From Kaistia terrae (lineage in GTDB: Bacteria > Pseudomonadota > Alphaproteobacteria > Rhizobiales > Kaistiaceae): DNA of 64,000 bases. The stretch is from contig NZ_JAPKNH010000002.1 of NCBI RefSeq assembly GCF_026344005.1, positions 496,001-560,000 of the forward strand, read 5' to 3'. The notes under the pieces are model-generated. The model was not told the DNA's origin, ran no database searches, and worked only from the letters and a program-made list of their open reading frames with translations. The position numbers were made by a program, and so were the translations under genes. Below, in pieces: positions 8,879 to 24,371 of this stretch (position 1 is its first letter; each line of letters starts with the position of its first letter).

Positions 8879-10135
8879 ATGGCCGACACAATGCTGACCG
8901 ACACGATCGCGGACGAAAACGTCTGGGCAGAGCCGAAGCCGACCGCGCTTCTGATCCTCGCCGACGGAACCGTGATCGAAGGCCGAGGCATTGGCGCGGT
9001 CGGGCAGGCGGTCGGTGAAGTCTGCTTCAACACGGCGATGACCGGTTATCAGGAAATCCTGACCGACCCGTCCTATGCCGGCCAGATCATCACCTTCACC
9101 TTCCCGCATATCGGCAATGTCGGCACCAATGACGAAGACGTCGAGACCATCAACATGGCCTCGGCTTCCGGCGTGCGCGGCTGCGTGATCAAGACCGACA
9201 TCACCGACCCGTCCAACTATCGCGCCCTGAAAAATTTCGACGCCTGGCTGAAGTCGCGCGGCATCGTCGGCATCGCTGGCGTCGATACGCGCGCGCTCAC
9301 CTCGCTGATCCGCGACAAGGGCATGCCGAATGCCGTCATCGTCCATGCGCCGGACGGCGTCTTCGACCAGAAGGCTATTGCCAAGGAAGCGGCTGCATGG
9401 CCGGGCCTCGAAGGTATGGACCTCGCCAAGGACGTCACCACCGGACAGAGCTTCCGCTGGGATGAGACCACCTGGGTCTGGGACAAGGGCTTTGGCCGCC
9501 AGGAGAACCCGGTCCACAAGGTCGTGGCCGTCGATTACGGCATCAAGCGCAACATTCTGCGCCTGCTGGCGGACGCCGGCTGTGCCGTGACCGTGCTGCC
9601 GGCAACGGCGACCGGCGAGGAAATCCTGTCGCACAAGCCGGATGGCGTCTTCCTGTCGAACGGCCCGGGCGATCCAGCCGCGACCGGCGAATATGCCGTG
9701 CCGGCGATCAAGGAAGTGATCGCGGCCGACGTGCCGCTGTTCGGTATCTGCCTTGGCCACCAGATGCTGGGCATCGCGCTCGGCGGCGAGACCAAGAAGA
9801 TGCATCAGGGCCACCACGGCGCCAATCATCCGGTCCAGGATCGCACGACGGGCAAGGTCGAGATCACCTCGATGAACCACGGCTTCGCCGTCGACGCCGG
9901 CTCGCTGCCTGACACCGTCGAGGAGACGCATGTCTCGCTGTTCGACGGTTCGAATTGCGGCCTGCGCGTCAAGGACAAGCCGATCTTCTCGGTGCAGTAC
10001 CATCCGGAAGCATCGCCTGGCCCGCAGGACAGCCACTATCTGTTCACGCGCTTCGTCAACCTGATGCGCGCCCGCAAGGGTGACGCGCCGCTCTCGGAAG
10101 CGCGGCCCACGCCGGTGCCGTTGCAGACTCGTTAG
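8879..10135 (+). CDS. carA: Carbamoyl-phosphate synthase small subunit (glutamine amidotransferase)
   Basis: The 418-residue protein has an N-terminal CPSase small-subunit domain (TALLILADGTVIEGRGIG, CFNTAMTGYQEILTDPSYAG, GVDTRALTSLIRDKG). A C-terminal class I amidotransferase domain follows. The catalytic Cys is about residue 291 in FGICLGHQML, with His 375 and Glu 377 in QYHPEASPGP. It releases ammonia from glutamine for CarB to make carbamoyl phosphate for arginine and pyrimidine synthesis. carB is not adjacent, as in other Hyphomicrobiales where the genes are separate. A terminator lies 26 bp after the stop. Confidence 0.97.
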   Translation: MADTMLTDTIADENVWAEPKPTALLILADGTVIEGRGIGAVGQAVGEVCFNTAMTGYQEILTDPSYAGQIITFTFPHIGNVGTNDEDVETINMASASGVRGCVIKTDITDPSNYRALKNFDAWLKSRGIVGIAGVDTRALTSLIRDKGMPNAVIVHAPDGVFDQKAIAKEAAAWPGLEGMDLAKDVTTGQSFRWDETTWVWDKGFGRQENPVHKVVAVDYGIKRNILRLLADAGCAVTVLPATATGEEILSHKPDGVFLSNGPGDPAATGEYAVPAIKEVIAADVPLFGICLGHQMLGIALGGETKKMHQGHHGANHPVQDRTTGKVEITSMNHGFAVDAGSLPDTVEETHVSLFDGSNCGLRVKDKPIFSVQYHPEASPGPQDSHYLFTRFVNLMRARKGDAPLSEARPTPVPLQTR

Positions 10136-15911: not shown

Positions 15912-17357
15912 TCAGGCCGTCCAGAGCCCGACGATACGGAACGGCGCGGCGGCGAGCCTGGCGATTTCGGCGGCCGTCGCCTTGGGTCGCGCCAGTTCGA
16001 GCGACCTGGCCGAGATGACGAGATGGAGGCTGTCGCGCTTTCCCTTCGGCACCGGCATCCGAAAGAGCCGGTCGACCGGCTCGCTGGAGCCTCCGCCGCC
16101 GACGCGGGTCCTCAGCCGGGCAATGACGACGCCATCGACGCTGACCTCGAAGAGAAAGCGGCGTGGCTTCTCCGGCGGATCCATCCGCAACCGGAGAAAG
16201 AGCGCGGCATGGTCCTGCACGTCGCGCAGCGACCGGTGATGATCGAGCGCTGCTTCGGACGGGGGAGCGTCGTGACCGCGGCGCCGGTTCATCCAGACGC
16301 CGGGCGTCCGCATCGCCCGGATCAGTCGCGCATCCTTGACCACCAGGTCGAAGCCCCGGCGACGCAGGATGCGATCGGCGAACCCGTCCGCCAGATCTTC
16401 GACGCGGCTGCGGTCGTCCGGGTGGCGGGTATTGGACCAGTGCTTGAGCCGTTCGGTCGCCGATACCCGCGCCCGGGCCAGCCTGGCCGGAACGTGCGCA
16501 GGCACGGGGAGCCCGACACCCTGTATGAGATAGGCGATCCCGTCGCGGCAGCCCGGAACAAGGCCTCGTTGCTCTGCCGTCGCGATCAGACGGTCCCAGT
16601 CGATCGGCTGTCGGGCCATGCGCGTGGCGGCGTCGATTGCCCAGTCGCCCCCTCCGCCCTCTGCGCCATGCGCCAGAAGGAGCAGCATCGAATCCGTCGG
16701 ATCTGGAACCAGAACGGGCCGAAGCGCCAGACTTACCGGCTTCGCCCGCGCCCATAGCGCCTCCTCGAGGGCAGGGGTGCTGCGGGCAAAATGAAAGGGG
16801 CTGATATGGAGATCGATCTCGCCATACTGCCCTTTCCTGAAATTTCCCCGCAACCGGGTCGGCAGGACCTGCCGCAGGAATGCGAACGACTCGCCCCCCA
16901 CTGGCAGCCATCCGCTTGCCTCGAGGGCGACCAACGCAGGCGCGACGTCACGCTTCTGAATCAGGACGTCGATATCGCCCATGACGCGGCGGGGCGAGAC
17001 CGCCAGGCCTTCGGCATATTGGGCGCCGCCCTTGAACACGATGAAGGGCACGCACGCCGCGTTGAGGCTCTCGAGAGCCATGCAGGACTCGCGCAGCCGG
17101 ATCTGGGTTCGCGTCCAGATCTGTTTCGCCAGCCCGTCGATGCGGGGCCGCAGGGGCGAGGTTGGGTCGAGTTCGGCCAGACGCGCCGCCACAGGCACCA
17201 GCAGGCGCATCTCATCCCACGTGATGTCATCGAAGTTCCGCGCGGCCTTCCAGTCCCGCCAGGCACGGGCGGCCTCGGCCGGCGGACAGAGCGCCGCACG
17301 CACCAGTTGCGCCACGCGACCGGTCGGCCAGCTCTTCGCCTGCGTCATTGCGGTCAC
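15912..17357 (-). CDS. Nucleotidyltransferase family protein (NTP_transf_5-like)
   Basis: The 481-residue protein has a helical N-terminus and a nucleotidyltransferase core: VPFIVFKGGAQYAEG (residues about 104-117) and RRVMGDIDVLIQ (124-134) with the D-x-D metal motif. Then come WLPVGGESF and EIDLHISPFH, a second acidic strand. This matches the NTP_transf_5 family found with HPr-kinase-like and PqqD-like genes in lasso-peptide and exopolysaccharide loci. The C-terminal 130 residues (after about 350) look like an extra beta-rich domain (RRFLFEVSVDGVVIARLRTR, DSLHLVISARSLEL). GTG 17357 overlaps the deacetylase stop by 4 bp; ATG 17348 is an alternative. Translational coupling with the deacetylase is likely. 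The substrate is unknown. Confidence 0.8.
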   Translation of the reverse strand: MTAMTQAKSWPTGRVAQLVRAALCPPAEAARAWRDWKAARNFDDITWDEMRLLVPVAARLAELDPTSPLRPRIDGLAKQIWTRTQIRLRESCMALESLNAACVPFIVFKGGAQYAEGLAVSPRRVMGDIDVLIQKRDVAPALVALEASGWLPVGGESFAFLRQVLPTRLRGNFRKGQYGEIDLHISPFHFARSTPALEEALWARAKPVSLALRPVLVPDPTDSMLLLLAHGAEGGGGDWAIDAATRMARQPIDWDRLIATAEQRGLVPGCRDGIAYLIQGVGLPVPAHVPARLARARVSATERLKHWSNTRHPDDRSRVEDLADGFADRILRRRGFDLVVKDARLIRAMRTPGVWMNRRRGHDAPPSEAALDHHRSLRDVQDHAALFLRLRMDPPEKPRRFLFEVSVDGVVIARLRTRVGGGGSSEPVDRLFRMPVPKGKRDSLHLVISARSLELARPKATAAEIARLAAAPFRIVGLWTA

Positions 17358-18340
17358 CGGCCTGCCTTCAAGAGCGAGGCCTCGCGCACCACCGCGCCAT
17401 GAGGTGGCGATCCAATGCGGTCAAGATCGTCGGAAAGTTGAGCGTAGGTGCAGAACGTCACGTCCGGCCGATCCATGATGCTCTCGATGAACCGCATCAG
17501 GGCCTTGCGGTAGACGAGCCCGCGATAATCCGTGAAGTGATGGCCGATGTGGATGGGAGCGCGATCCGTGAGATAGTTCCTCTTGAAGTACTGCAGGTAC
17601 GCTTCCACGACGCGCTCCTCCAGGCACTCAAGATCATCGAAGACTTCGGGATTTTCCTGCGACTGTACGATGAAGAGATTGTAGTCCATCGAGAGGGGCG
17701 CCCGCCGGTATCCCCGCAGCGGTATGCTGGCCAGCTTGAACTTCCAGATACCGTCTTGGTTCTTCCTCGGCCAATCGCCTGCGCGGCCGGCCATGCTGGC
17801 ATCATAGCGGTACTCGCGCGCGGCAAGCGCGGCGTCGAGCCCCGGCCCGATGCTCAGGAAGGGCGCACGAAAACCCTTGATGTCGTCCGGGCCGAAAGCG
17901 AGGCCTTGCCTGGCGTCGAGACCGTTATTGCCAGCAAAGTTCTCGATCAGCCGGTCGTAGGTCCCGAACTCGGCCAGCCATTCGGCCGGGCTCCAGGATG
18001 CGCCATCCAGATGCCCGACAGCGTGTGAGGCGATCTCGTGGCCCGACAGGAAGAGCGCGTTCATGCAGGCGACGCGCTCGAGCAACTCGGGCTGCGTTCC
18101 GCCAAACCGGATCCTTGCCTTGCCGGGTTCGCTGCCCGGACCTTGGTAGAGGTTGCGCTGCTCGTCAGTGAGGAAACAGGTTCCGCTGACAAAGAACGTG
18201 AGGCGGAGACGGGGATGCTTGTCGCGGAATTCCGCCCAGGCGCGCCAGCTCTCGATGTCGACGCAACCATCGAACGAAATCAGCACATATTGCTCAGTCA
18301 CGTCCGGATCGACCTTCCCCCTAGCGCAGTCCTGCGGCAT
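17354..18340 (-). CDS. Polysaccharide deacetylase family (NodB-like) protein
   Basis: The 328-residue protein has a NodB-like fold. Motif 1 is the strand YVLISFDGC (residues 18-26), motif 2 is SGHEIASHAVGH (99-110), motif 3 is KGFRAPFLSIG, and a late GHHF matches the C-terminal His region. In active NodB enzymes motif 1 is TFDD, the second Asp binding metal; here that position is Gly, which may alter or abolish deacetylation. There is no signal peptide, so it would act in the cytoplasm or on a membrane-bound intermediate. It overlaps the following nucleotidyltransferase by 4 bp and is divergent from the large GT2 gene. An internal GTG at 18301 is an alternative start behind GGGGGAAGG. Confidence 0.8.
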   Translation of the reverse strand: MPQDCARGKVDPDVTEQYVLISFDGCVDIESWRAWAEFRDKHPRLRLTFFVSGTCFLTDEQRNLYQGPGSEPGKARIRFGGTQPELLERVACMNALFLSGHEIASHAVGHLDGASWSPAEWLAEFGTYDRLIENFAGNNGLDARQGLAFGPDDIKGFRAPFLSIGPGLDAALAAREYRYDASMAGRAGDWPRKNQDGIWKFKLASIPLRGYRRAPLSMDYNLFIVQSQENPEVFDDLECLEERVVEAYLQYFKRNYLTDRAPIHIGHHFTDYRGLVYRKALMRFIESIMDRPDVTFCTYAQLSDDLDRIGSPPHGAVVREASLLKAGR

Positions 18341-18393
18341 CCTCGCATGCGATATACGCGGTATCCAGAACTACGGCTGGCCGACTGGCCGAT

Positions 18394-20256
18394 ATGAACG
18401 GATTGATTTCGTCGCGAACCCCTCGAACGAGCGATCCAACCTTGCCGACCTATTCCGAACCGGCCTCGCAAATGGCAAACGTGCAGGCGCCCTGCCGTGA
18501 TATCGCCATCCGCATGCTTGCGAGCGTGCGCCAGGGCAAGAGGCAGGCGGCCTGCGATCTCGCGGGGGAGATCACAGGGTGCGAGACCGCCGACCTGCAT
18601 AGCCTGGCGCTGGCGGGGCGCATCCTCGAACTCGCGGGAGCTGGCAATGGTGAATCGGAGTGGCTTTATCGTCGCATGGCGGCGGCGGCACCCGAGCTTA
18701 TCTATCCCCGTTACCGACTCTGCGAACTCCTTCTGAAGTGCGGCCAGACCTTCGAGGCGGCGGAGCTCGCCACGAGACTGGTGGCGCAGGCGCCCGACAA
18801 TGCACGCATTCAGGACCTCGAGAAGCGGGTGACGGCGTTCGCAGCGGGGTCAGGCTTTGACCTCTGGCGACGATGGTGCGCGGGCTCGGGCTCATCGCGC
18901 GAGGGCGGCGGCATCGCGAACTCGGCGATGGCCGTCGTCGTGATCGGCTTCCGCGCTCAGCCGAGCCTTGTCCATGCCGTCGCGTCCCTGCTCGAGCAGG
19001 AAGAGCCGGCCGAGATCGTCGTCGTCAACTCAGGCGGCGGCGACCCCGCGACGCTGCTGGCGCCCTTCGCAGCCCGCATTCGCCTGATCGATGTCCAGGC
19101 GCCGCTCTATGCTGGAGCGGCCCGCAACATCGGCATCGACGCGAGCAGGGCGCCCCACATAGCCTTCCTCGCAGGGGACTGCAGGGCAAGGCCCGGCTGG
19201 ATCAGGACGCGGCTGGCCGCGCATGAAAGAGGCGCAAGGGCGGTTGCCTCTGCGATCGTTCCCTCGGATCACGATAAAGATCTCGCGCTGGCGGCCCATC
19301 TCTGCCTGTTCGGTGCCCGGTCGCCAGAGACGCCGCCGACCCAAGCGCTTCGATACGGTGCATCCTATGATCGGCAGGTCTTTGCCGAGTTCGGCTATTT
19401 CAATCCGACGCTAAGGATCAGCGAGGACACGGATCTGGCCAGGCGATTGGGCAGGCAGGTTCACCCTGCCTGGGTTCCGCAGGTGCAGACCGAGCATGGC
19501 AGCCCGCAAGGCCGGCTGCGTTTTTGGCGCGAGATGTTCGGCCGAGGCCGCCGGGCGGCGCGCTATCAGCCAGCCCGTGAACCGCAATCGTCCGCGCGTG
19601 CAGCGGTCGTCCGTGAGTTGCTCGCCGCCGCGCGCCAGCGCACCGCAACGGTGTTGCGCATCGCAGACGAGTTCCTGAAGCTTGAGCCGACGCGGCAGGC
19701 TGCCATCCGGAAGCTCGTCGGCCCGGCCTCGCTAGCTTATGGCGCCGGAAACTATATCGGGCTTGTCTCGCTTCACCGCGCCCGACGCTTTCATCAGGAA
19801 AGTCGCCGGTCGCGATCGCGTGGCGCCATTCAGCCAGCGCTTCGCAAAGCCGAAAAGGCGCTGCGGGCAGACCCGGCAAACCTGGCGGTTCGGCTTGAGT
19901 TGATCGATCTCCTGCGCGCGAGCGGCGGGGGCGACCACTGCGCGAAAGCCGACACGCATCTGGACATCGCCATGTGGCAATCGGCCTTTCACGACGAAAG
20001 GCTGGCCGGCATGGCCGATTGGCTGCTTGAACGGAAGATGACCGAGCGGGCGTGGCGGCTCGGCGAGATCGCGACCTTCAGCCTGCCGTCGGCAATCCTC
20101 GTCCATGAACGCCTGGCGCGGGCGGCCGAAACCATCGGCGATCCCGTCGCCTTCGAACTCGCGGCGTTCGATGCGCTGGCGCGCGATCCCGCCGCGGCGC
20201 CGATTGGCCCGCGGCTCGATGCGCTTTACGAAACCAGTTCCCGCGCACTCGCCTGA
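18394..20256 (+). CDS. GT2 glycosyltransferase flanked by helical repeat regions
   Basis: The 620-residue protein has an N-terminal helical, TPR-like region (ADLHSLALAGRILELAGAGN and on through YRLCELLLKCGQTFEAAELA). A GT2 domain spans about residues 175-400: AVVVIGFRAQPSLVHAVASL, EIVVVNSGGG, AGAARNIGIDASRAPHIAFL, AGDCRARPGW (DxD-like position) and FNPTLRISEDTDLARRLG (E-D base). The C-terminal region is again helical and TPR-like (AEKALRADPANLAVRLELID). The repeats suggest assembly with partners or a peptide or polymer acceptor. The last 31 bp overlap the convergent HPr-kinase-like gene. The start is uncertain; a later Met at about residue 27 is possible. Confidence 0.82.
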   Translation: MNGLISSRTPRTSDPTLPTYSEPASQMANVQAPCRDIAIRMLASVRQGKRQAACDLAGEITGCETADLHSLALAGRILELAGAGNGESEWLYRRMAAAAPELIYPRYRLCELLLKCGQTFEAAELATRLVAQAPDNARIQDLEKRVTAFAAGSGFDLWRRWCAGSGSSREGGGIANSAMAVVVIGFRAQPSLVHAVASLLEQEEPAEIVVVNSGGGDPATLLAPFAARIRLIDVQAPLYAGAARNIGIDASRAPHIAFLAGDCRARPGWIRTRLAAHERGARAVASAIVPSDHDKDLALAAHLCLFGARSPETPPTQALRYGASYDRQVFAEFGYFNPTLRISEDTDLARRLGRQVHPAWVPQVQTEHGSPQGRLRFWREMFGRGRRAARYQPAREPQSSARAAVVRELLAAARQRTATVLRIADEFLKLEPTRQAAIRKLVGPASLAYGAGNYIGLVSLHRARRFHQESRRSRSRGAIQPALRKAEKALRADPANLAVRLELIDLLRASGGGDHCAKADTHLDIAMWQSAFHDERLAGMADWLLERKMTERAWRLGEIATFSLPSAILVHERLARAAETIGDPVAFELAAFDALARDPAAAPIGPRLDALYETSSRALA

Positions 20257-21317
20257 GCCGGCAATCCCTCGATGAAGTCGCGCAGCACAAGCCCGTTCGC
20301 AGCCGCGTCGGCGGAGAGCTCCATGTGGTAGCAGGGCAGGCGCGCCAAAAGACGCGCGAAAAACGACATGCCGTCATCTGTTTCGCCGGCGAACTGATGC
20401 AGGTTCGAACTCATCAGCGCCAGCATAAGCGCCTGCGGCCGGGCGGCAACGATGGCAGGCCGACTAGCCTGCGCGATACGCGGCAGGATGGCAGCGCGCA
20501 GGGCCATCGTTTCGACCGTCGCGCCCCGGAAGAACTGGTCCGGGTCGAACTCGACCTTGCCGCGCCAGTTGTCGCCGATATGCGCCGTCCTCGCATCGAG
20601 TTCCGGAGTGCGAGCCAATCCCGCCCGGTCCTGCTTGAGCCCGCGATAGAGCGGGCGCGCCGCCGGCGCGGGGCCATCAACGAGAGCGACATAGTCGTCT
20701 CCGACCGTTGAAAGTCCTGCCGTGAGCCCGGCCAGCGTGGTGCCGGATTTGCCCGCGCCGCCCTTGCCGAACAGCACGACGCCACGATCTCGCCAGCCCA
20801 GCGTTGCGGCATGAGCCAAGCGGAGGCCGTTCTCACCCAATAGCCAGTGGAGATGCTGTCGAAGCGGTGCTGAACCGTCCCACGGTGGCAGGTCGTCCGG
20901 ACTGGCCGTCCATTGCACGCCGACCCGCGACCGGGTGTCAAAGAACCGCCAGACACGTGCCTGGAAGGGATAGGCCGCGCGCAGGCCCGCGGCCTTGATC
21001 ATGGCGTGAAACGCGGCAGGCAGAAAATCTGTATCGTGCCATGCCGGCACTGCCTGAAATCCCGGCAACTTGCCCGTCAGCACATAGAGGCGGTCGATCG
21101 GCGCGTCGTTCACGCCGACATTGCGAAACCGGCTCGTATAGGCAGCGGCGAAATCGGGATCATCGTAATGCGTCTCGATGTTGAGGCCCGCCGGCGAAAT
21201 GCGGTGGGTGGTGAAAGGCGCACGCGGCATCGCTTGAAGATCGCGGATCACCTGGCGCATCCAGCCGACCAGATTGGCCCGATCCACACCTGCTCCCTGA
21301 GCGGCCGCCAGCTTCAT
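20226..21317 (-). CDS. HPr kinase-related protein (HprK-like, PqqD-associated)
   Basis: The 363-residue protein has a C-terminal HprK-type P-loop domain. The Walker A motif VVLFGKGGAGKSGTTLAGL puts GKGGAGKS at residues 184-191, and STVGDDYVALV (about 204-213) is the acidic strand after it. The N-terminal 170 residues are unlike classical HPr kinase and match the 'HPr-rel' kinases that sit with PqqD-like and NTP_transf_5 genes. Proteins of this type phosphorylate a serine in some lasso peptide precursors; the substrate here is unknown. It lies between two plus-strand glycosylation genes on the opposite strand and overlaps the end of the GT2 gene by 31 bp. Confidence 0.82.
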   Translation of the reverse strand: MKLAAAQGAGVDRANLVGWMRQVIRDLQAMPRAPFTTHRISPAGLNIETHYDDPDFAAAYTSRFRNVGVNDAPIDRLYVLTGKLPGFQAVPAWHDTDFLPAAFHAMIKAAGLRAAYPFQARVWRFFDTRSRVGVQWTASPDDLPPWDGSAPLRQHLHWLLGENGLRLAHAATLGWRDRGVVLFGKGGAGKSGTTLAGLTAGLSTVGDDYVALVDGPAPAARPLYRGLKQDRAGLARTPELDARTAHIGDNWRGKVEFDPDQFFRGATVETMALRAAILPRIAQASRPAIVAARPQALMLALMSSNLHQFAGETDDGMSFFARLLARLPCYHMELSADAAANGLVLRDFIEGLPAQASARELVS

Positions 21318-21429
21318 GTCTTCGTATCTCCCATCCGGCGCGCCGGAAAATGCTCGTAGCCGTTGAAGCTCGGGACCGTTTGCTGTTTAGCTCGGCCCCT
21401 TGCAACACCGGACAATTCAAAGCCTTAGC

Positions 21430-22383
21430 ATGCTGACCTTAGTGAATATCAAGAGCATTGAAGTCCGTCAGGCCAGCGATGCGATCTCCAAACGGGTTCA
21501 CGCATGGTTTCAGTCGGACAGGCGGGTCGGTTTCCCCGATGGCAGTCGCTCCATCCACCTGCCTCACCCGGAGAAAAGCGATTTCACCCTCAAGATCAAA
21601 GGGGCGGGGCTCAATGGTGGCGCCGTGCGTTTCGGGGTTTTCAGCAAGACGGGCCCGGCCGCAAAGCGCTTCGATTTCGACGGCCGGGTCATGGACGACG
21701 TGGCCTCTGGCCACGACAATGCCTTCCTGGGAGGCGCCTCTTTCCAGCAGGCATCCACCGAATTCCATGTCAGCCAGCTGCTGGCCGGGCGGGGCGTCGC
21801 CGTCGTGCCATGCCTGGGCTATGGCAGGGTCGACACGGACACGCACGCATCATGGTTCTCCATCTTCGAATGGAAGCGCGACTGGAGATCCGGTCTCATC
21901 CCGAGCCCCAGCTCGGGCAGAGCCTATGGCGAGGCCAATATCCGCCTGACCAACACCATGTTGCAGCTCGCGGTCGAGCACGACCTCATCGGTTATTGTG
22001 GTCATGTCCTCACCAGCGCAGGACAAACCCTGCTGAAGGACCTGCATCCCTTCCATCGCGCGGATCCGATCAGCATGTCGCAATTGTCCTGGGTCATGCA
22101 GGTGCTGTTCGCGCTGAATATCCGCTGCCATGCCGCCCGGCAATTTTCCATTGCCGCCGGTCTCGATGTGCTGCCGGACGACATCGTTGCCTATCCGCTG
22201 CGCGCGATCGTGCCCGACGCGAACTTTGACGACTACGCCGCGCTGCGGGACCGGATCGTCAAGCCCTACATGATCCGGGCGCCCGACGATTTTAGCCCCC
22301 GAGCCCTGCATGGTGCGCTTCGCAGCATCCGGGTAAGCAGCGCGTTGCTGGATCTTTGTCCGCCCCAATTTACCCGCTGGTAA
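21430..22383 (+). CDS. Unrecognised protein, possible divergent kinase-like fold
   Basis: I cannot assign this 317-residue protein to a family. It begins MLTLVNIKSIEVRQASDAIS. Segments that recall the SelO/kinase-like fold are a beta-strand with Lys (FTLKIKGAG, about 52-60), FDGR (83-86), STEFHVSQLLAGRG (109-122) and HVLTSAGQTLLKDLHPF (192-208), the last resembling a metal-binding Asn/Asp region. The similarity is short and eye-read. It sits just upstream of the two small GT2 genes on the same strand. ATG 21430 is preferred over an upstream in-frame TTG at 21400; neither has a strong Shine-Dalgarno. Confidence 0.7.
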   Translation: MLTLVNIKSIEVRQASDAISKRVHAWFQSDRRVGFPDGSRSIHLPHPEKSDFTLKIKGAGLNGGAVRFGVFSKTGPAAKRFDFDGRVMDDVASGHDNAFLGGASFQQASTEFHVSQLLAGRGVAVVPCLGYGRVDTDTHASWFSIFEWKRDWRSGLIPSPSSGRAYGEANIRLTNTMLQLAVEHDLIGYCGHVLTSAGQTLLKDLHPFHRADPISMSQLSWVMQVLFALNIRCHAARQFSIAAGLDVLPDDIVAYPLRAIVPDANFDDYAALRDRIVKPYMIRAPDDFSPRALHGALRSIRVSSALLDLCPPQFTRW

Positions 22384-22480
22384 ATCTTGCTTTTTCCCTG
22401 CGCGCACTTGCCCTGCGAAATCGAGACAGGCAGTAAGGTATTTAGCCTTAGTTAATTCGTTATTTGGACAGTTGAGGGAC

Positions 22481-23173
22481 ATGAAGAGCGCCACGAGCAG
22501 CAGGGTCAGTGTCGTGATTCCCGCCTTCAACGCCGAGGCCTATCTTGCCGAGGCTGTGGCGAGCGTCCTCGAGCAGACGGTCCCGGCGACCGAGATCATC
22601 CTTGTCGATGACGGGTCCACCGACGGCACCGGCGACATCGCTCGGAGCGTCGCCGCCGTGACCTATGTCCGCCAGGCCAATGCGGGCGTCGCCGCTGCGC
22701 TCAATCACGGGGCCCGCATCGCCAGCGGCGATTGCATCGCGTTCCTGAGCGCCGACGACATCTGGTGCCCCGACAAGCTCGCGCGTCAGAGCCAGGCCTT
22801 GCAGGACGCGCCGAACCGGCTTGTCTTCGGCCCTATGCAGCACTTCGTTTCGCCCGAGCTGACCCCGGCGCAGGCAGCCGGGCTGGCATGTCCGCCTGAG
22901 CCGATGCCCGCTTTTTCCGCCGGCACGCTGCTGACCCGTCTCGATACGTTTCGCGCCATCGGCCCGCTGAACGAAAGCTTCAAGGTCGGTGAATTCCTCG
23001 ATTGGTATGGCAGGGCGCGCGATGGCGGCGCCGAGGTGATCATGCTCGACACCGTCGTGTCCCGCCGCCGGGTCCACCTCGCCAACCAGAGCACCAAGGC
23101 TCTGCGCGAAAAGAGCTACGCCCCCGTCCTGAAGGCGATGCTGGACCGCCGACGCAGCGCGAAGGAAGGCTGA
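22481..23173 (+). CDS. GT2 family glycosyltransferase A
   Basis: The 230-residue classical GT2 fold has VSVVIPAFNAEAYLAEAVAS near the N-terminus, EIILVDDGSTDGTGDIA (UDP-sugar binding Asp), GVAAALNHGARIASGD and FLSADDIWCPDKL (DXD-type). The C-terminal part has FSAGTLLTRLDTFRAIGPLN and GEFLDWYGRARDGGAEVIML. It is soluble, with no membrane segments, and transfers a sugar to an unknown acceptor. The true start is ATG 22481 after GAGGG. The stop TGA shares a base with the ATG of the next GT2, so the pair is translationally coupled. Confidence 0.92.
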   Translation: MKSATSSRVSVVIPAFNAEAYLAEAVASVLEQTVPATEIILVDDGSTDGTGDIARSVAAVTYVRQANAGVAAALNHGARIASGDCIAFLSADDIWCPDKLARQSQALQDAPNRLVFGPMQHFVSPELTPAQAAGLACPPEPMPAFSAGTLLTRLDTFRAIGPLNESFKVGEFLDWYGRARDGGAEVIMLDTVVSRRRVHLANQSTKALREKSYAPVLKAMLDRRRSAKEG

Positions 23174-23910
23174 TGCGGCTCGTTGTTCTTCTGCAGGCCC
23201 GCAACGAACAGCGCTTCCTGCCCGGCTGGCTCGAGAACGTCGCCCCGGCCGTCGATGGCATCATCGCGCTGGACGACGGCTCCGAGGATGCCACCGCCGA
23301 GATTCTCGCCGGGCATCCGAAGCTGATCCAGCTCATCCGCAATCCCGTGGGGCAGCCATGGAGCGAACGCGGCAATCACATCGCGCTCATCAAGGCTGCC
23401 CGCCAGCATGGCGCCGAATGGCTGCTCTGCGTCGACGCCGACGAGCGGCTGGAGCAACGGTTCGCTGGCGACATCGCCCAAATTCTCGATGACGCCGACA
23501 CGAAGGGCATCGAGGCCTATTCGTTGCAGCTCCGCGAACTCTGGAACGACCGGTCGCACTACCGGAAGGATGGCATCTGGGGCCGCAAGGCGCGCTACCG
23601 GCTGTTTCGGAACGATCCTCGCCACACCAAGTTCGATCCCCGCCCGCTTCACCGCTATTGGATGCCGCTCGATATCGTCACGCGGCTGGCAAGCGTCGGC
23701 GCCCATCTGCCGCATAATCTCTATCACCTGCGCATGGTGCGCGCCGAGGACCGGCAGGCGCGCCACCAGCGCTATGTCACGCTGGATCCGGACAACCGCT
23801 ACCAGCCCCAGGGCTACGACTATCTGGTCGATGAGACCGGGATGGAGTTGGCCACGATCCCACCCGAGCGCGATTTTCTGCCCCGGCGGGACAGCGCTCT
23901 TTTCGAATGA
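23173..23910 (+). CDS. GT2 family glycosyltransferase B
   Basis: The 245-residue GT2-like protein has LVVLLQARNEQRFLPGWLEN, DGIIALDDGSEDATAEIL, RGNHIALIKAARQHGAEWLL and the VDADERLE motif (DxD). Then come ELWNDRSHYRKDGIWGRKAR and FDPRPLHRYWMP, a pattern typical of GT2 enzymes from glycan or tailoring clusters. The start ATG overlaps the previous stop and follows GAAGGAAGG. Its own stop overlaps the PqqD ATG (ATGA). Donor and acceptor are not predictable. Confidence 0.88.
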   Translation: MRLVVLLQARNEQRFLPGWLENVAPAVDGIIALDDGSEDATAEILAGHPKLIQLIRNPVGQPWSERGNHIALIKAARQHGAEWLLCVDADERLEQRFAGDIAQILDDADTKGIEAYSLQLRELWNDRSHYRKDGIWGRKARYRLFRNDPRHTKFDPRPLHRYWMPLDIVTRLASVGAHLPHNLYHLRMVRAEDRQARHQRYVTLDPDNRYQPQGYDYLVDETGMELATIPPERDFLPRRDSALFE

Positions 23911-24371
23911 ACTCGCGCCCTCATTTTCAATCACTCTTATCGTCAGGACAGGCTGTGTCGCCCCATCACCTTGAACTTGCGTCGCCCCAGTGCTCGGCGG
24001 ATGATTTCGATGGCGAGATCGTCGCGATCAATCTCGAAACCGGAATCTACTACAGCATCAAGGACTCCGGCGCCGTGCTCTGGCACGACCTGATCGCTGG
24101 CCACTCGGTCGAGGCGCTGGTCGATCTGGCCGGCGAAAACGCCGAGTTGGCTGCCGGGATCGCGAGTTTCGCCGACGAAGTGGTGAGTTGTGGCCTGATG
24201 CGCCCGACGAGCGAGGCGCCTGTCCCGAGCGAGCCGGCCGTGACCGCCGTACAAGCCGCGACGATGACGGCTCCGGCGCTGGAGTCGTTCGGCGACATGC
24301 AGGACTTGCTGCTGCTCGACCCGGTGCATGAGGTCGACGAGGAGATGGGCTGGCCCAAGGCGCCGGACTAG
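23907..24371 (+). CDS. PqqD family peptide-modification chaperone with conserved acidic tail
   Basis: The 154-residue protein has a PqqD-like winged-helix domain at about residues 20-100: DDFDGEIVAINLETGIYYSI, GAVLWHDLIAGHSVEALVDL and a helical end with FADEVVSCGLM. A Pro/Ala/Val linker follows. The C-terminus ends with a distinct motif DMQDLLLLDPVHEVDEEMGW (130-149), a pattern I associate with PqqD-like proteins of HPr-rel loci. PqqD proteins bind peptide substrates for modifying enzymes. It is the last gene of a plus-strand trio with 4-bp overlap. No separate precursor peptide gene is obvious, so the tail itself may be relevant. Confidence 0.85.
   Translation: MNSRPHFQSLLSSGQAVSPHHLELASPQCSADDFDGEIVAINLETGIYYSIKDSGAVLWHDLIAGHSVEALVDLAGENAELAAGIASFADEVVSCGLMRPTSEAPVPSEPAVTAVQAATMTAPALESFGDMQDLLLLDPVHEVDEEMGWPKAPD

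Follow-up and report, generated by a model that had tools for sequence, protein, structure and literature searches.

A PqqD-family protein with a near-invariant C-terminal tail in a candidate peptide modification cluster of Kaistia terrae

The window analyzed in this study is a stretch of 64,000 nucleotides from Kaistia terrae (assembly GCF_026344005.1, contig NZ_JAPKNH010000002.1, positions 496,001 to 560,000), and the cluster of interest lies at 15,912–24,371 within it. Its last gene (23,907–24,371, + strand) encodes a PqqD-family protein of 154 amino acids in which three parts are joined in one chain: a recognition element (RRE) of the kind that binds leaders of ribosomally synthesized and post-translationally modified peptides (RiPPs), a segment resembling such a leader, and a short, near-invariant C-terminal tail, DPVHEVDEEMGWP. 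Computational analysis placed the tail gene beside genes for an HprK-like kinase, an NTP_transf_5 nucleotidyltransferase and small family 2 glycosyltransferases (GT2s), and the cluster is a widespread variant of the RRE/HprK/nucleotidyltransferase pathways, tied to small GT2s and undescribed as far as was searched. That this set recurs in many bacterial phyla suggests a pathway of peptide modification of a kind not yet described. The reading that the tail protein is a self-presenting RRE protein, a fused relative of the pathways for phosphorylated lasso peptides and for the linear peptides named LPPs, we consider evenly balanced.

The PqqD-tail protein

The RRE domain occupies residues 20–102 (23,964–24,212, the model range aligned to 5v1v), and by structure comparison its fold is nearest to leader-bound lasso B1 proteins (5v1v). 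The match to the Pfam PqqD family scored 21.8 bits for the whole protein against a cut-off of 23.4, and 23.6 bits with its neighbors in the genome search. Beyond the domain, residues 120–130 (24,264–24,296) read M-x-x-P-x-L-E-x-F-G-D, with the spacing of a lasso leader, and residues 138–150 (24,318–24,356) form the tail motif. In the AlphaFold2 model, the confidence score (pLDDT) is 92–94 over residues 101–130 (92 for the block 121–130), with a strand predicted at 125–128, and is about 64 from residue 131 onward, the tail motif itself scoring about 64–65 and being predicted as flexible. Because confidence is high up to residue 130 and low beyond it, the leader-like segment may be read as docked in cis and the tail as a free end, docking of the leader in cis being predicted only.

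Conservation of the tail was evaluated in 23 aligned proteins, the window's own plus 22 homologues that a whole-protein similarity search had retrieved with a query that included the tail, a set that offers an unbiased check relative to the motif scan described below. DP[IV]H[DE] and GWP are present in all 23, and among the 17 proteins that remained when six near-copies were dropped, mean pairwise identity was highest in the tail (0.52), lower in the domain (0.29) and lowest in the linker (0.14). The region upstream of DP[IV]H was evaluated in a set of 82 proteins from the motif scan (the 102 found there minus 20 that are more than 75% identical to another or, in one case, L182, a fusion; the fragments L167 and L186 are included). 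In 77 of the 82, position -15 is P, L, I or F, position -13 is hydrophobic and position -10 is aromatic or His, and among the matches listed the pattern [FYW]xxPx[LVIMF] lies at -18 in 33 of the 82, compared with a background of 4 in 8071 upstream positions. YxxPxL, given as the lasso leader motif in the available text of PMC10368454, has the same spacing, the window protein having Met where Tyr stands. Searched alone, the tails gave no match up to E 10 in NCBIfam (10 tails) or Pfam (9 tails), a test that is weakened by the HMMER filters. In two Nitrospirota loci (L091 and L164), the tail runs on after GWP into a second W-P segment.

Gene association across genomes

GTDB contigs were scanned blind, using a DNA pattern that covered the tail motif and nothing else; the resulting sample is not random, the stretches are at most 8 kb long, and the counts, which cover the matches listed, are lower bounds. 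Since D, P, H, G, W and P and the four-residue gap are fixed in the pattern, those columns are conserved by construction in the 102 tail proteins that it found. At least 117 stretches with the motif were obtained, 102 of them with PqqD-tail proteins (the PqqD-tail profile matching 102 of 102) and 15 with DNA polymerase I. Among the tail stretches, an HprK gene is present in 92, at a median gap of 14 bp from the tail gene and on the same strand in 90, a GT2 gene in 81, an NTP_transf_5 gene in 70, and all three together in 59. The 15 polymerase stretches served as a control, and none has HprK, GT2 or NTP_transf_5. Four of the 10 tail stretches that have no HprK gene (L098, L164, L175 and L187) leave fewer than 700 bases downstream, and the L187 gene is contained in L043, the wider stretch of which has an HprK homologue. 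The polymerase look-alike, QIDPIHEVVRLLGWPV, comes mostly from Variovorax and other Burkholderiales (e.g., L078, L111 and L128). Carriage by viruses was considered and rejected, the single viral motif match being a chance look-alike without tail context.

By their record titles, the tail loci come from at least 13 bacterial phyla; a further contig is from a Woesearchaeota bin, and two carry no phylum name. Many are contigs of metagenome-assembled genomes (MAGs), and single phylum assignments may be wrong. Neighborhoods were fetched for all but one of the 21 places outside the window that the homologue search had found, and for one cyanobacterial plasmid. In these 21, a kinase homologue was found by tblastn in 18, and in 20 with clustering of open reading frames (ORFs) added, the exception being L028, and a homologue of the window's GT2 a was found by tblastn in 20. 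A Crinalium plasmid has the same set by its public annotation, which lists a PqqD family protein, a nucleotidyltransferase, an HPr kinase, an FkbM methyltransferase and glycosyltransferases. The original prediction, made from the DNA alone, had set co-occurrence of the HprK-like, PqqD-like and GT2 genes in relatives as its own test beforehand; that co-occurrence holds, and the gene set is not a chance juxtaposition.

The association with GT2 genes is also seen when loci with and without the tail are compared. Within 1.5 kb of the PqqD gene, a GT2 gene is present at 20 of 24 tail loci and at none of 26 tail-less loci, and an NTP_transf_5 gene at 1 of 24 and 5 of 26, respectively, in sets that are taxonomically unmatched (the tail set mostly from the window's order, the tail-less set nearly all from a whole-phylum sample) and with neighbor models that were built from tail-locus proteins and may favor tail loci. 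Because of this difference in GT2 genes, the tail can be said to go with GT2s in this comparison.

The kinases that accompany the tail retain the residues of their family, with the His, the three Gly, Lys and Ser of GxxGxGKS, and the two Asp conserved at 93–100% in 85 kinases from 83 stretches (among the matches listed). The same residues are named in the lasso kinases, for which the RRE protein strongly boosts phosphorylation, according to the available text of PMC10368454, and in pseudomycoidin hexoses are put onto the phosphate by the nucleotidyltransferase, according to that of PMC8498205. The lasso kinases, the pseudomycoidin enzyme and the LPPs are the nearest functional precedents for this cluster.

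Proposed mechanism and alternative explanations

In the mechanism proposed here, a single polypeptide combines the RRE, its own leader-like segment and the short, conserved acidic tail. The segment that resembles a leader, P-x-[LV]-E-x-[YF]-x-D, would fold back onto the RRE in cis, mirroring the way in which a lasso or LPP leader binds to a separate B1 protein. Docked in this way, the protein would offer its flexible tail (DP[IV]H[DE]VDxxxGWP) to three kinds of partner enzyme, the HprK-like kinase, NTP_transf_5 and the small GT2s, whose joint action may build a phospho-glycan or glycan on or near the tail. The RRE fold, the tail with its conservation, the association of the genes and the motif of the kinase are computational results that favor this mechanism; that the tail is the modified part we infer, as we do the order and chemistry of the steps. 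Tentatively, the protein could be a self-recognizing precursor or carrier whose near-invariant core, DPIHDVDxxxGWP, is phosphorylated and/or glycosylated to give a conserved product in at least 13 phyla, and a phosphorylated or glycosylated peptide, as the original prediction had it, is a plausible product of the cluster. If this is true, the pathway would be RiPP-like with a product that is constant like a cofactor, not variable like an antibiotic, and a search for precursors encoded as separate small ORFs would overlook the entire family, should the tail be the substrate. In a recent survey, 21% of PF05402 proteins were reported to be larger than a discrete RRE without containing any other Pfam domain (available text of PMC12710340); the tail family may account for part of this dark set, giving it a defined motif and partners.

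Several observations weigh against this proposal. The tail is far less variable than the usual RiPP core, and in 4 of the 22 homologues the spacing is one residue shorter. Among the matches listed, Ser and Thr are absent from 26 of the 82 tail cores, and also from the window's own; since the reported acceptors of such kinases are Ser or Thr, the known HprK acceptor is missing. Only 8 of the 82 proteins end in Ser, and phosphorylation of a C-terminal Ser as in paeninodin was rejected as a general explanation. No peptidase was seen to recur beside the tail gene, the commonest unassigned family among ORFs of at least 150 amino acids being present in 4 of the 82 stretches (among the matches listed), and in a Gemmatimonadetes MAG contig one open frame (L182, 1140–2918) joins RRE, tail and HprK kinase, leaving the tail internal. 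The kinase is not specific to the tail, as it is found near the PqqD gene at 20 of 24 tail loci and 13 of 26 tail-less loci, although kinases beside tail-less PqqD genes would be expected for lasso-like loci, and some of the ruminal lasso clusters are reported to contain GT2s (available text of PMC7533575). On the trees of both RRE domains and kinases, tail and tail-less proteins are split by one change, which speaks for the proposal, but the split is weakly supported. One branch of the RRE-domain tree parts tail from tail-less proteins with 98% bootstrap, but the SH-like approximate likelihood ratio test gives it only 40 (98/40), with few columns and the bootstrap unsettled, and the kinase tree, built from 50 of 59 tail kinases, reproduces the same split by one change with just five tail-less kinases and long-branch warnings.

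Because there is no conserved Ser or Thr, no recurrent peptidase was seen and the tail is internal in the L182 fusion, a released peptide is less likely than a modified carrier, and the idea of the tail as a docking motif stays alive. The protein would then be an adaptor, its tail a handle that recruits the kinase and the GT2s, and the true substrate a peptide that is poorly conserved and was not recognized, a lipid or a surface glycan. We regard this as possible but doubtful. It would accommodate all three of these features as well as a tail that is near-invariant across phyla. Speaking against it, no separate precursor was found: small ORFs (20–120 amino acids) from 92 loci, compared all-against-all, formed no group present in more than eight loci, the largest consisting of ORFs antisense to GT2 genes and of flanking genes in Mesorhizobium, a comparison that is blind to very short or variable peptides. 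In addition, a leader-like motif in the same chain would presumably contend with any leader supplied in trans for the cleft of the RRE. It seems more likely that the tail is a substrate or carrier than a docking motif.

An ordinary capsule, lipopolysaccharide or exopolysaccharide cluster in which the PqqD and HprK proteins have a side role is unlikely. The GT2s and the NodB-like gene of the window would fit such a cluster, as would GT4 genes in 12 of 101 tail stretches (a first count, among the matches listed), an Asn synthase gene in the loci of two same-family genomes (L040 and L043; G023 and G025), and the LPP and paeninodin genes reported beside capsule loci in the available text of PMC13381572. 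However, HprK is the most constant partner of the tail and the GT2s track the tail, none of the 20 ORFs scanned in the cluster and its surroundings matched a polysaccharide polymerase or flippase family, and homologues of the NodB-like protein are absent from the motif-scan stretches among the matches listed. Less probable still is a degenerate or alternative lasso locus that uses a distant protease and cyclase. The RRE is of lasso type and is accompanied by a kinase and a nucleotidyltransferase, and 9 of 18 genomes, that of the window among them, have a match to the B2 protease family PF13471 elsewhere, but in none of the 18 does one lie near the tail gene, the closest on one contig being about 129 kb away (G094), although two of the tail contigs are only 11–15 kb long. 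The window's genome has partial Asn_synthase matches only, each covering at most 66 of 354 positions (best E 1e-5, though over the Pfam cut-off), there is no Asn_synthase match in the window cluster, and the AsnB model matches none of the 102 tail stretches (among the matches listed). With no B2 protease by the tail gene and no cyclase in the window cluster, a lasso locus is disfavored. The original prediction had likewise seen no lasso protease or cyclase in the cluster and several GT2s beside the PqqD, HprK and NTP_transf_5 genes, an arrangement now found to be widely conserved.

Cluster organization and variants

The cluster begins with the NTP_transf_5 nucleotidyltransferase of 481 amino acids (15,912–17,357, - strand; PF14907, E 1.5e-22, 80.8 bits against a cut-off of 31.2) and a NodB-like, polysaccharide deacetylase-like protein (17,354–18,340, - strand; Polysacc_deac_1, 19.5 bits, under the cut-off of 23.1). 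These are followed by a 620-amino acid protein that combines tetratricopeptide repeats with a GT2 domain (18,394–20,256, + strand; Glycos_transf_2, E 4.3e-11; TPR_19, E 1e-7) and by the HprK-like kinase of 363 amino acids (20,226–21,317, - strand), which has the motif GKGGAGKS and matches Hpr_kinase_C weakly in Pfam (E 0.015). Next is a gene for a 317-amino acid protein (21,430–22,383, + strand) with no family or sequence match in Pfam, NCBIfam or the PDB, and then GT2 a (22,481–23,173, + strand, its ORF listed from 22,472; NCBIfam GT2 models, best E 9.6e-22, under their cut-offs), overlaid by an antisense ORF at 22,460–23,077, and GT2 b (23,173–23,910, + strand; Glyco_tranf_2_4, E 5.8e-10), which overlaps the start of the PqqD gene. 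No MsbA-like transporter was found among the window ORFs scanned. Profile searches found every gene that the original prediction had named (HprK-like kinase, NTP_transf_5, PqqD-family, three GT2 and NodB-like) where it had placed them; its list omitted the 317-amino acid gene and, more importantly, it overlooked the C-terminal tail of the PqqD protein, which is the decisive feature.

Within the genus the distribution is patchy, the PqqD gene being present in 7 of 14 genomes, the window's own included (E 0.001 or better). In G010, only a 3' part of the tail PqqD gene is left, at 9672–10,145 of L028; from residue 47 onward it is about 90% identical, and the other cluster genes were not found in the 20 kb fetched. 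The variant seen in the window, with a divergent kinase, the 317-amino acid gene and GT2 b, is also present in two genomes of the same genus (G002 and G011) and in Pelagibacterium lacus. Homologues of the 317-amino acid protein were found in L026, L027 and L122 (51%), only in Kaistia and Pelagibacterium in what was fetched, and the NodB-like protein has a full match in L026 and a fragment in L027, the only two Kaistia loci besides the window to have it. Other variants add a GT4 gene and a family without assignment, an Asn synthase, an ABC exporter or an FkbM gene. ABC exporters adjoin L037 and L041, and an unspecific ABC model matches 21 of the 102 tail stretches (among the matches listed). 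Beside the cluster in L041 (4839–7088), a 749-amino acid ORF looks like a fusion of an FkbM-type methyltransferase with a radical-SAM/SPASM-like part. The window's genome also has a second, separate set (L001, 48–1776; contig C1 of G000, about 496.6–498.3 kb), which consists of a tail-less PqqD-like protein of 97 amino acids, a Transglut_core3 protein resembling lasso B2 and a 367-amino acid HprK-like kinase.

Comparison with known systems

The original prediction had labeled the cluster as HPr-rel-A-like. HPr-rel-A (NCBIfam TIGR04352/TIGR04353) combines a PqqD-like with an HprK-like protein, and is also paired with NTP_transf_5, but the proteins considered here fall far under both curated cut-offs. 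Against HprK_rel_A (TIGR04352, cut-off 200 bits), the window kinase scored 27.3 bits and those of three relatives 16.3 to 27.5 bits, and against PqqD_rel_X (TIGR04353, cut-off 35 bits) the window protein was unmatched at E up to 1, with a best score of 21.7 bits in seven relatives. Membership in HPr-rel-A was rejected on these scores, and the label is not supported. The closest characterized relatives are the kinase/RRE pathways of lasso peptides and LPPs. In the PQQ and mycofactocin pathways, a PqqD-type RRE acts with a near-invariant but separate short precursor and with radical SAM enzymes. They differ from the tail cluster in that separate precursor and in their radical SAM enzymes, which do not recur as partners of the tail.

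RRE fusions are discussed in PMC7470986 and PMC12710340, and this fusion is not described in the available text of either. In the open-access literature (PubMed Central), within which subscription papers mostly do not fall, no description of this tail or of such an RRE-precursor fusion was found in the text available, and four literal tail strings were absent from the articles searched.

The ruminal lasso clusters of Butyrivibrio also have a nucleotidyltransferase, an HPr kinase/phosphorylase, a GT2 and a PqqD protein together; they are reported with a lasso protease and a cyclase, and the available text makes no mention of a tail (PMC7533575). With the phosphorylated and phosphoglycosylated lasso peptides (paeninodin, pseudomycoidin, Bsf), the cluster shares a B1-type RRE, a lasso feature that the window has, an HprK-like kinase with its H, GxxGxGKS and DD residues, a nucleotidyltransferase and the YxxPxL leader spacing. 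It differs from them in that no B2 protease lies beside the tail gene (18 genomes), no cyclase is in the window cluster (an Asn synthase being present in two relatives), no separate precursor was found and the tail is near-invariant.

The LPPs (LppA/B/K/N/D/S) are linear peptides made in Bacillota with an RRE, an HprK-like kinase, an uncharacterized NTP transferase and a SpI peptidase, and with no macrolactam cyclase, according to the available text of PMC13381572. As in these systems, an HprK-like kinase and an NTP transferase stand beside the RRE in the window, and the LPP leader motif YxxP, in precursors that bind the RRE, resembles the leader-like segment of the tail protein. The LPPs are, on the other hand, described there with a separate precursor, a SpI-type leader peptidase and Ser3 as acceptor, and as restricted to Bacillota. 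No widely conserved small ORF that could be an LPP-style precursor (YxxPxVLxHQxIxFETxxS, a motif not itself searched as a pattern) was found and the tail motif differs, and a SpI-type leader peptidase exceeded the TIGR02228 cut-off in none of 18 genomes, four having weak matches away from the cluster. Membership in the LPPs was rejected on the precursor, the SpI peptidase and the Ser acceptor, but the two systems may work alike. The tail cluster has its RRE and leader-like tail in one chain, without a conserved Ser, together with several GT2s and in at least 13 phyla.

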